In this document: positions 4,794 to 8,238 of the stretch, in pieces
Numbering within the stretch: position 1 is the first letter of the stretch
Layout of the letters: each line of letters begins with the position of its first letter
Assembly: GCA_021823555.1 (NCBI GenBank)
Contig: JAKANW010000097.1
Location: forward strand, 1-8,309
Direction: 5' to 3'
DNA: 8,309 nt
DNA from: Chloroflexota bacterium
GTDB taxonomy: Bacteria > Chloroflexota > Anaerolineae > Anaerolineales > Villigracilaceae
Translations under genes and position numbers: made by a program
Notes under the pieces: model-generated
What the model saw: the letters and a program-made list of their open reading frames with translations, nothing else
Told to the model about the DNA's origin: nothing
Database searches by the model: none

Positions 4794-5531
4794 TTATTCC
4801 TGTTTTTTCCAGCGCGTGATCAACATTTTGACCCGCAGCCGCACTTGCGCATCGGCATTGGCAACGGCCCAGGTGGACTGCACGGCTTTTAACGCGTTGA
4901 CTTCGAGCTTCTCGAATCCCTCCCACTCGGTTTCCATGAATTCCTGCATCTCAGATGGCGTATCCCAGTAATAAAAGTACGAAAAATTTTCTTCACGCTC
5001 ACGCTTGAACCAGCTGCGGGACTCGGCCTCCCGCATGGCGCGTGCAGCGGCCTCGTCATCCGCGATGGCGACAGGCAGGTCGGTTAAACGGCCAGCCTCC
5101 ACAAAGGCTGAGCCTGAGGCGACTTCGATGGGCCAGCGCGCTTCCAGCGGACGCAGGTCTATCAGAATCCCATCCCGCCTGAGCGTTTGTCGAATTTCAT
5201 CCAGAGCATGGACCATGCTCGCGTGTTCAATTCATCAGAGCGACCAGGAGAACAGGGCGATGTCAAAGGTTTCGCGCGGGAAGGGCAGTCGGTGAGCGCT
5301 GGCGTTTGCCAAACGAACGGTCTCCTGCAAGCGCGCCGGGCAATCAGCACGCGCCACGCGCAGGGCAGCAGTATCGGGGTCAATACCAACTACTTCACGG
5401 GCGGATGAGGCATATTGCCAGGTGAGTCGTCCCTCGCCGCAGCCGACTTCAAGCACGCGTTTGCCGCTGAAGTTGGCAAATGTTTTCAGGACTTTTAACT
5501 CGTTCCGTTCTGGGTCGCGTCGCAGGGCCAT
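4794..5531 (-). CDS. Class I SAM-dependent methyltransferase with tandem in-frame TGA (candidate Sec-Sec selenoprotein)
   Basis: The gene reads as one 245-codon methyltransferase if two adjacent TGA codons (99 and 100; 5232-5237) are translated. Before them come motif I, VLEVGCGEGRL (26-36), the motif II acidic residue in GIDPD (49-53), and FDIALFSWSL (89-98), the beta-4 region. After the TGAs the same frame continues IEHASMVHALDEIRQTLRRDGILIDLRP, the helix and beta-5 hairpin that normally follow beta-4. The C-terminal part is aromatic and acidic (ENFSYFYYWD). The position of the two TGAs corresponds to the pair often seen as HH or CC after beta-4 in this superfamily, and TGC/TGT to TGA is a single change per codon. 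A SECIS-like stem-loop follows directly. The ATG at 5531 comes 3 nt after the amidase stop, has no visible ribosome-binding site, and is probably translationally coupled. Alternatives are a doubly mutated pseudogene or two separate proteins (5235-5531 and 4794-5216). The substrate is unknown. Confidence 0.8.
5191..5237 (-). promoter_or_regulatory. Candidate bacterial SECIS element overlapping the tandem UGA codons
   Basis: On the mRNA, GAGCAUG (complement of 5214-5220) pairs perfectly with CAUGCUC (complement of 5204-5210) around a GUC tip; if the closing G-C pair opens, the loop is GGUCC. The loop G lies 18 bases after the second UGA and 21 after the first. A lower stem, GAAUU (5233-5229) with AAUUC (5196-5192), adds five pairs plus a U-G wobble with the first base of the second UGA. 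An 8-by-7-base internal loop separates the two stems. A hairpin just 3' of UGA with a G-U in a small loop is what SelB recognises in known bacterial SECIS elements, and the GGUC tip resembles E. coli fdhF as I recall it. Function is inferred. Confidence 0.5.
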
Positions 5532-5534
5532 GGG

Positions 5535-7235
5535 TTAGTCGGGTAGAAGTTGATAATGTACCTGCGGGGCTTTGCGCTCGAGGACTTGTTCGGCGGCCAG
5601 AGCCATGCGCAGCAGCGTGGCTTCCTGCCAGGCCCGCCCGATGGCTTGCATCCCGATGGGCAATCTGCTTTGCGTATAACCAACGGGAAAGGAGATGGCA
5701 GGCAGGCCGGTGAGATTCGCAGCGGTGACAAAACGCATGATCTCGATGGTGGTAGTCAGGTCCGATTCGCCATCCGGCAGGGCGGTTTTGGGAATGGGCG
5801 GCGCGGTGAGACCGGTGGTGGGCGTGAGGATCATATCCACTTTGCTCAGCGCATCATCGAAATGTTTCATCATGCGCGTGCGGACCCTTTGCGCTTTGAC
5901 ATAATCGGTGGCGGTGAATTGGCGTCCCAGCGCCAGGTTGATGCGCACATCCAGGCCGTACTGGCGATGGTGTTCCTGGTAGGTGGCGTCCAGGGCCTGC
6001 GTCATTTCGCTGACGATGGTGATCGTGTGCGCGACGCGGTTGGCTTCCAAATCGGGGATGATGATCTCGCGGATTTCACAACCCATGACTTCGAAGCGCT
6101 TGAGCATGACTTCGCAGGCGGCCACCACCTCCGCGTCCGCGTGGCGGAACCAGGGCTGGTAGACGCCGAGTTTGAGTCCGCGCAGATCGAGGTTGTCCCA
6201 GCCTTCGAGCGTGGGTAGGGGTTGGCGCAGCGAGTTGGGATCGCGCGGGTCGGGGCCGGCGATCAGGGCGTAGGTGAGAGCCGTGTCGGTGGCGGAGCAG
6301 GCCAGGGGGCCGATATGAGCGACGCTCCAGCACAGAGGCGCGGCGCCGTGTTCGCTGACTCGTCCGTAGGTGGATTTCAATCCCACGATCCCGCAAAACG
6401 AAGCGGGGATGCGGATTGAGCCGCCGCCGTCCGCGCCGATGGCAACGGGTACGAGTCCCGCAGCTACGGCTGTGGCGGAGCCGCTGGAACTTCCACCTGT
6501 GTAGTGACCCGTGTTGTATGGATTGCGGGTCGTGCCGTGATGTGGATTCAGCCCTGTCACGTTGATGCCGATTTCGTGCATGTTGGTCTTGCCGATCAGC
6601 AATGCACCCGCCCGGCGCAGGCGCGCTACAACCGTCGCGTCCTCTGCCGCAGGCGACTTGCCCAGGAAGGATGTTCCAACTGTGGTGGGATAGGGCGTCA
6701 TATCAATTTCATCCTTGACCGCTACGGGAACGCCGTCGAAGATGCTCAGGGCGCGCCCGGCTTGGATGCGCTGCGTGGATTTGCGCGCCTGCTTCAATAT
6801 ATCGTCACGGTTCACCGCGATGACCGCCCGCAAAGGGGGATTGGCCGAGTTGCTGGCTTCGATGGCATCCAGCACTTTCCGGGCAACTTCTTCGGGCGTG
6901 GTGGCACCATCCCGATAGGCTTTGGCAAAATCATGGATGGTCGCAAAGTGAAAGCCTTTTGCGCTGGCGGGTTCGCGCGGCCATTCATCTTCCGGGACGG
7001 AGGCGGCCTCTTCCTGCGGGGCGCCCGTGAAGTGAATGGGCAGCAGGGTGGGCGGTTCGTCATACTCCTGTTGGCGCAGCCAGGTAAGACCCGCGCTTTG
7101 GAAGAGACTGGGAGTCAGCAGTCCCTTGAGCGGCCCCTCCACCAGCGAAGCAAACAACTTCAGAGTCCCGCCGGTGAGATGCGGAAGTTTGACCGATTTC
7201 AGGTCGTACACGCCTGGCGCAGTTTTGGTATTCAT
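5535..7235 (-). CDS. Amidase signature family hydrolase, plant fatty acid amide hydrolase (FAAH)-like
   Basis: The 566-residue protein carries the full Ser-cisSer-Lys triad of amidase-signature enzymes. Lys174 is in [12 protein letters not shown], Ser249 in GGSSSGSA (cis-Ser), and Ser273 in [16 protein letters not shown] (nucleophile). The spacings of 75 and 24 residues equal those of K142, S217 and S241 in rat FAAH. The roughly 95-residue N-terminal extension, with [13 protein letters not shown] and [10 protein letters not shown], then [24 protein letters not shown], strongly recalls plant-type FAAH rather than the shorter GatA or aryl amidases. It probably hydrolyses amides or esters with hydrophobic acyl chains; substrate and localisation are uncertain, and there is no signal peptide. 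The start is fixed by GAGGA (complement of 7239-7243) just before the ATG. It precedes the methyltransferase by 3 nt, so the two form an operon. Confidence 0.92.
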
Positions 7236-8169: not shown

Positions 8170-8238
8170 GTGGACTCGCCGTCTAAATCAAAAAACTCAA
8201 AGCTAGATATAAACTCTTTTTTTGCGGGCGAGTCCCAC
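8170..8238. repeat. Nested imperfect inverted repeat upstream of the ClbS/DfsB gene
   Basis: GGACTCGCC (8172-8180) and GGCGAGTCC (8227-8235) form a perfect 9-bp repeat that extends by two more pairs past a one-base bulge (8170-8171 with 8237-8238). Inside it CAAAAAA (8189-8195) pairs with TTTTTTG (8218-8224). The result is a two-tier stem with an AT-rich 22-base tip. It could be a small palindromic mobile element or a terminator of the neighbouring gene beyond the right edge. No gene is recognised in 8094-8309 as a whole. Confidence 0.45.

Follow-up and report, generated by a model that had tools for sequence, protein, structure and literature searches.

A probable Sec-Sec methyltransferase family of Chloroflexota, with tandem UGA codons followed by a candidate SECIS hairpin

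A gene of a Chloroflexota bacterium, found within an 8,309-nucleotide stretch of DNA (hereafter, the window: the whole stretch that was analysed), is in all likelihood an intact selenoprotein gene in which two adjacent UGA codons are both decoded as selenocysteine (Sec) via SelB, tRNA-Sec and one SECIS element, yielding a methyltransferase of 245 residues. The features of the window that bear on this reading are the following.

4794..5531, minus strand: gene for the putative Sec-Sec class I SAM-dependent methyltransferase, 245 codons and a TAA, assigned from Pfam and AlphaFold2
5238..5531, minus strand: N-terminal half, the SAM-binding Rossmann part with motif I (LEVGCGEGR), reaching to just past strand beta-4
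5232..5237, minus strand: tandem UGA UGA, codons 99-100, Cys-Cys in the 14 full-length homologues among the matches listed
5204..5220, minus strand: candidate bacterial SECIS hairpin, with a 6-bp stem (5220-5215 with 5209-5204) and apical GGUCC (5214-5210)
4797..5231, minus strand: C-terminal half, the remaining Rossmann core and an extension, entered in databases as a protein of its own, 137-150 aa long

Under the proposed mechanism, ribosomes would decode both UGAs as Sec through SelB and tRNA-Sec, the single SECIS hairpin would direct both insertions, and the product would be a class I methyltransferase whose Sec99-Sec100 pair follows closely on strand beta-4. At the level of sequence, the case consists of a family with exchange between TGA and Cys codons, a hairpin that covaries and is lost in Cys-Cys genes, Sec machinery in relatives, and selection on both sides of the site; from these, we infer that the window's own organism decodes both codons and that they share a single hairpin.

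The methyltransferase frame runs on the minus strand from an ATG at 5531 to a TAA at 4794-4796, and codons 99 and 100 are the sole internal stops among its 245 codons. The initial annotation had proposed a candidate Sec-Sec selenoprotein here, having noticed TGA TGA at these two codons of an otherwise intact frame encoding one class I methyltransferase. Re-reading the minus strand from the DNA gave the same two codons and no further stop, and Pfam Methyltransf_25/11 scores above cut-off within residues 7-124 of the read-through protein; the proposal itself gains support from the alignment of the TGAs with Cys, from the covarying hairpin and from the machinery in relatives. The initial annotation did not include the hairpin, nor how widely the family occurs, nor the Cys-Cys genes that act as controls. 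Motif I together with a Rossmann-like methyltransferase fold places the protein among the class I SAM-dependent methyltransferases. Searched alone, the C-terminal fragment (P0002) gave no Pfam match at E <= 0.001. Besides codons 99-100, the only cysteines of the window protein are C31 and C64.

A protein search recovered 1621 proteins at E <= 0.001, and the figures given here rest on the best 120 of the 1621, which include the window's own fragment, 14 full-length proteins (P0003-P0016) and 105 proteins of 137-150 residues. All 14 full-length proteins listed contain LCCI where the window reads L-TGA-TGA-I. The 105 listed fragments share 62-75% identity with the window protein, and their first residue corresponds to window residue 101 (50/105) or 106 (55/105), never to an earlier one; such starts just behind the pair are what gene callers that stop at TGA would produce. 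These 105 proteins look, from their sequences, like truncated halves of a selenoprotein, which suggests that current annotation splits Sec-Sec methyltransferases in half. Where they are named at all, P0017-P0121 are called hypothetical protein or SAM-dependent methyltransferase.

The fragments could also be taken at face value, with the N-terminal half ending at the TGA and the C-terminal half restarting at a later ATG to form a second protein, as would fit the occurrence of that half as a separate database entry in 105 of the best 120 matches; the selection data, taken alone, are compatible with such an arrangement. However, the 14 full-length homologues listed are each one chain with Cys-Cys, internal stops in the family are TGA only and occur at Cys positions only, and a SECIS and the Sec machinery are present. 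Moreover, the division would cut a Rossmann fold after beta-4, whereas the whole chain is modelled by AlphaFold2 at a mean pLDDT of 95.3 (pTM 0.90). We consider two separate proteins very improbable.

The reading of the pair as Sec-Sec can be followed through the DNA of relatives. Profile A2 was run in six frames, with stops read through and up to six candidates scored per genome, against a sample of 400 Chloroflexota genomes; among the matches listed, there are 52 family matches, at 108-392 bits, in 47 of the 400 genomes, and all 52 contain one or two internal TGAs, the other matches listed reaching at most 70.3 bits and having no stop. In a second sample, of 400 genomes from one order, 85 had a match and 83 of the 400 had the TGA form, with one or two TGAs in 90 of 92 matches and no stop in the other 2; in a third, of 152 genomes from one family, 66 had a match, with TGA in 65 of 67 matches and no stop in 2. 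The phylum, order and family samples overlap. TGA is the only kind of internal stop in the six-frame matches, save in four rows that each have one TAA or TAG: in G001 (phylum and order searches), it is the gene's own terminal stop, and in G300, G258 and G058 (family search), it is probably the terminal stop as well, since the frames end one codon past the matched domain. Phyla beyond Chloroflexota were covered by one close-relative scan, and a plasmid search gave partial matches only, at less than 60% identity.

The first 55 distinct genes read as DNA comprise 38 with Sec-Sec (UU), 15 with Sec-Cys (UC) and 2 with Cys-Sec (CU) at the site; with 33 more resolved in the order sample and one identical pair merged, the set grows to 87 distinct genes, the window included, of which 64 are UU, 21 UC and 2 CU. 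Three named Chloroflexota relatives are among the illustrations of this pattern, two having TGA TGA and one TGA TGC. Across the 19,758 matched-domain codons of the 87 genes, TGA occurs nowhere but at the equivalents of codons 99-100; frames were ended at TAA or TAG before scoring, so that the absence of these two stops from the count is by construction. The alignment check that had been put forward in the initial annotation thus came out with all four combinations, Cys-Cys, Sec-Cys, Cys-Sec and Sec-Sec, at codons 99-100 of homologues, and its remark that a neighbouring gene ends in a regular TGA also stands: the adjacent DUF1706/DinB-like gene terminates in TGA. TAA or TAG is the terminator in 7 of the 8 window ORFs checked, the methyltransferase frame included.

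These counts bear on two simpler accounts of an in-frame TGA. A conserved gene interrupted by two adjacent stops might be a decaying pseudogene, or the stops might be artefacts of sequencing or assembly. Against this stand the recurrence of TGA at the same two codons in the 87 distinct genes, drawn from many assemblies, and never elsewhere in the domain, the covariation of the hairpin, and the similarity of pN/pS on the two sides of the site (medians over 39 comparisons, 0.42 before the TGAs and 0.37 after), which places both halves under similar purifying selection. Decay or error is, in effect, refuted by conservation across so many genomes, and we assign it a negligible probability. Alternatively, an in-frame TGA within a gene could mean that the carrier genomes have reassigned UGA globally to an amino acid, but TGA terminates the neighbouring gene, the 87 family genes have no TGA at other codons, and most carriers possess the full Sec machinery, all of which leaves reassignment hardly credible.

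Given that both UC and CU occur, each of the two positions is a Sec position in its own right. Of the two Sec residues, the first is better retained, and the excess of UC over CU (21 versus 2) suggests that the second is more dispensable. This asymmetry, combined with the general expectation that tandem insertion should cost yield, lends some weight to a different account, in which only one UGA is usefully decoded and the other mostly terminates, such that the UU protein would be rare and termination maybe regulatory. However, UU is the commonest state of the family (64/87), the spacing of the hairpin from either UGA agrees with the published range, and the two sides of the site are under selection of about equal strength; we regard decoding of a single UGA as unlikely, and retain decoding of both. 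In L067 (genome G067, contig C16), two Sec-Cys copies lie less than 5 kb apart on the same strand. In L136 (genome G608), the site is Arg-Gln (PLRQI), neither Sec nor Cys, in a genome with SelB above cut-off, a possible case of functional divergence.

The second line of evidence is the RNA element behind the pair. In the window, the hairpin starts 14 nt past the first UGA and 11 nt past the second, its apical stretch lies 20 nt from the first and 17 nt after the second, and the apical GGUCC can be closed to a GUC loop, the stem then being 6-7 bp. The limits for bacterial SECIS elements given in the accessible part of PMC13188914 are a loop of 3-9 nt, an upper stem of 4-16 bp, a G in the first two loop positions, a distance of 16-37 nt from the UGA and a minimum free energy of -7.5 kcal/mol or lower, and the window hairpin falls within all of these; counted from the first TGA, a stretch of 49 nt has a folding energy of -13.7 kcal/mol, with z = -2.3 relative to dinucleotide shuffles. 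A 6-bp stem topped by GGUCC, GGUCG or GGUUC is present in 48 of the 55 genes, and 5 of the 55 have an apical stretch with C first and G second. Over the 55 genes, 328 of 330 stem cells are paired, compared with 21-66% for stems displaced along the gene in codon steps, and all 6 stem pairs are formed in each of the 34 further Sec genes of the order sample, L121 (UU) included.

Covariation within the stem points in the same direction. Of the 324 cells in 54 distinct sequences, 99.4% are paired, and changes on both sides are seen at 5 of the 6 pairs, in 21 cells; none of 500 shuffles was as good as the observed combination of pairing and both-side changes, and sliding the stem partners by 1-3 bases reduces pairing to 26-59%. 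The number of further pair types is unremarkable, being reached in 150 of the 500 shuffles. At the level of codons, the first base of a Ser/Gly codon covaries with the wobble base of an Ala codon four codons on (39 G-C, 14 A-T, 1 G-T and 1 A-C; Fisher p = 5e-11, uncorrected for kinship), and codon +9, which mostly encodes His or Asp, has T as its third base in 20/20 genes of clade A and 29/33 of clade B, against background T rates of 0.50 and 0.36, respectively. Neither the Ser/Gly-Ala covariation nor the preference for T at +9 is explained by protein coding.

Folding energy contributes less. Against a synonymous-codon null, the mean z over the 55 genes is -1.25, with p <= 0.05 in 14/55 and p = 0.15 for the window itself, a modest signal; given the weakness of these z-scores, the argument is carried by pair counting and covariation. 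Covariance model R1, run on 40 sources, recovered their 22 family sites at 54-65 bits, all 22 of them part of the training alignment, and nothing besides these above 16.8 bits in the same sources. Rfam at gathering thresholds gave no match within the window.

Genes of the family with Cys-Cys at the site provide natural controls for the hairpin. Three such genes examined at the DNA level keep 3/6 (L137), 4/6 (L151) and 3/6 (L152) of the stem pairs, and R1 gave 12.4 bits for L151, with the other two not among the matches listed; judged by sequence, the hairpin is lost in all three. The genomes of L151 and L152 still encode SelB, and the L137 genome has no SelB match at E <= 1e-60. The peptide encoded by the hairpin behaves in parallel: in alignment A4, a selection of 66 sequences, Val occupies position +8 in 54/54 Sec rows and 0/12 Cys rows (Fisher p = 2e-13, uncorrected for kinship), and it is likewise found in 54/55 of the first gene set, L089 having Gly, and in 105/105 of the listed database fragments. 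This peptide is thus constrained in the Sec forms and relaxed in the Cys forms. On an unrooted tree with 102 rows, which include 15 Cys-Cys rows, and with bootstrap support unsettled, Cys-Cys requires 6 changes, at least 5 of them forced by well-supported branches, UC requires 11 (8 forced) and CU 2 (2 forced); because several changes are needed, the exchange between Sec and Cys must have taken place more than once, the directions being conjectural on an unrooted tree.

The machinery for Sec insertion was surveyed in relatives of the window, namely, the 47 carrier genomes of the 400-genome Chloroflexota sample. Above cut-off, SelD is found in 47, SelA in 45, tRNA-Sec in 45 and SelB in 44, the last counted from best E-values. 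SelB occurs in 307/400 genomes of the whole sample versus 44/47 carriers (Fisher p = 0.0027, uncorrected for kinship), and as it is so common in the sample, its enrichment in carriers is weak evidence; it is also present in 20/20 further carriers. In 14 control genomes, SelB passes the cut-off in 2, SelA in 1, SelD in 2 and tRNA-Sec in 5, so that the tRNA-Sec cut-off is not fully specific and is the least specific of the four. In 43/47 carriers, tRNA-Sec scores at least 53 bits; G170 and G202 fall below the cut-off of 47 bits, and G261 (47.3 bits) and G320 (47.9 bits) lie just above it. A tRNA-SeC(tca) was identified in 8/8 loci examined, and ARAGORN found no tRNA gene in the window. SelB was not found in carriers G047, G098 and G289, nor SelA in G098 and G289, and each of these three has a tRNA-SeC(tca) and a TGA-bearing SelD; the gaps in SelB are likely due to incomplete assemblies. 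SelD is itself a known selenoprotein. A single in-frame TGA is present in the above-cut-off SelD of 45/47 carriers; there is none in that of G210, and the SelD match of G194 is without the N-terminal part.

What the enzyme might do is suggested mainly by the position of the pair. In the predicted structure, Sec99-Sec100 would come shortly after strand beta-4 (residues 89-95), and in class I methyltransferases, the SAM pocket is faced by the residues that follow beta-4, so that a site near this pocket, as suggested in the initial annotation, fits the secondary structure of the model. Structure searches place the window protein among generic class I methyltransferases; the S-methyltransferases TmtA (5egp), GtmA (5jgk) and OxaG (5w7k) are 11-16% identical to it, and as many other class I methyltransferases score alike, these three permit no inference on substrate. 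The closest profile in NCBIfam is the corrinoid protein-associated methyltransferase CpaM (NF043040), which is matched at E <= 1e-5 by 66/66 A4 members and by the window at 63 bits against a cut-off of 180, so that identity with CpaM was rejected. In NCBIfam release 20, no cut-off was reached among the 25 of 34 families listed for the window or the 25 of 53 listed for P0003.

The arsenite methyltransferase ArsM (NF008823; Sec forms NF041536 and NF041537) shares the class I SAM fold with the window family, and a profile comparison with ArsM sequences of carrier genomes (101 columns, probability 98%) places Sec99 on the cysteine of the ArsM motif ISNCVINLS after beta-4, which we take to be cysteine 174. 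In CmArsM, cysteines 72, 174 and 224 bind As(III), and activity is abolished without cysteine 174, according to the accessible parts of PMC5552862 and PMC3877260. The family is nevertheless not ArsM: the window scores 23.6 bits against an NF041537 cut-off of 510, of the arsenic-binding cysteines 72, 174 and 224, no more than one is matched, by Sec99, and 11/12 carriers tested also encode an ArsM above cut-off. The 25 of 34 NCBIfam families listed for the window do not include plain ArsM (NF008823), and three ArsM sequences that were read have no adjacent Cys-Cys at the place of Sec99-Sec100.

Two other families resemble the window family in combining a methyltransferase domain with two Sec residues, going by the accessible part of PMC13188914: MduS (NF045649), the methyltransferase domain-containing double selenoprotein, and the methyltransferase/UXPK-star double selenoprotein (NF047649). 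The motifs given there, CxxU for the former and UxxG for the latter, differ from the UU of the window family, and neither identity holds, the window scoring 36.2 bits against a cut-off of 380 for MduS (model length 338 versus 245) and 27.8 bits against 460 for MTase/UXPK-star. Among the 66 A4 members, E-values go down to 2.3e-18 (ArsM/AhpD), 1.7e-17 (MTase/UXPK-star) and 1.5e-13 (MduS).

The placement of Sec99 on an ArsM cysteine suggests a soft metal(loid) or chalcogen substrate, and our working hypothesis is that the enzyme methylates some other soft metal(loid) or a chalcogen compound, in which case the Sec pair would be a ligand or an acid-base pair. Conceivably, and we offer this tentatively, the two selenols face the methyl group of SAM and keep a soft electrophile, either a metal(loid) or a chalcogen compound, in place to receive it. 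The main rival of this soft-substrate hypothesis is that the pair forms a diselenide redox switch or a metal-binding regulatory site that takes no part in methyl transfer. Vicinal chalcogenols can form diselenides, and most uncharacterised selenoproteins are likely to be redox proteins, in the view taken in the accessible part of the review PMC13188914. However, Sec99 falls in the alignment on a Cys that is conserved in ArsM, and it does so in a stretch that, in this class of enzymes, generally faces the SAM pocket; we consider a purely redox or regulatory role somewhat unlikely.

The gene neighbourhood offers little guidance on substrate. Directly upstream of the methyltransferase, with a gap of 3 nt, lies the following gene.

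5535..7235, minus strand: amidase gene (PF01425)

The amidase cluster recurs near the methyltransferase in 6 of 68 loci, and clustering of neighbours (517 ORFs in the 68 loci, with a Pfam scan of one representative per cluster) revealed no single partner and none pointing to a substrate. Amidase or UPRTase genes lie near the methyltransferase in other loci, and contexts in clade B differ. In clade A, an upstream ORF of the DUF1801 cluster (L001, L065, L068, L069, L077, L079) or of the zinc-ADH cluster (L066, L075, L080) often overlaps the gene by 4 nt, the partner differing between subclades. Elsewhere in the window, an inverted repeat (312-330 / 360-378; 19 nt, 89% complementary, 29 nt between arms) separates ORF 2-229, sugar-epimerase-like by eye, from a G5-domain gene, and a second one (8172-8187 / 8220-8235; 16 nt, 81% complementary, 32 nt between arms) lies near the contig end.

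With respect to known selenoproteins, we rate the window family as new and its tandem-Sec form as an unusual variant. A catalogue from 2026 that covers 119 prokaryotic selenoprotein families has, in its accessible part, no UU motif, some rows being without a motif, and its five entries of the SAM-methyltransferase type (ArsM, MduS, MTase/UXPK-star, ArsM/DUF2284 and ArsM/AhpD) do not include a UU form there either; the catalogue table cites the families of Haft and Tolstoy 2025 as its ref. 64 (PMC13188914). In the open-access literature, we found no bacterial family with adjacent Sec residues of this kind; the tandem UGA codons described in the accessible part of PMC11510084 belong to an overlapping frame of a viral gene, not to bacterial selenoproteins.

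Taken as a whole, one tentative picture is of a widespread Chloroflexota family in which a single SECIS would direct two consecutive Sec residues, a Sec-Sec soft-ligand site beside SAM might methylate a metal(loid) or chalcogen compound, or else relay the methyl group via selenium, and the sequence [SG]MV[HD]AL might be kept for the sake of the RNA rather than the protein. Sec-Sec is the commonest state of this methyltransferase family, and yet UU is absent from the accessible part of the 119-family catalogue (PMC13188914). The natural UU, UC, CU and CC versions of one enzyme form a series in which the role of each selenium, and the way in which one SECIS serves two adjacent UGAs, could be addressed. 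More generally, the family suggests that a protein motif can be imposed by an RNA element and become relaxed when Sec is lost.
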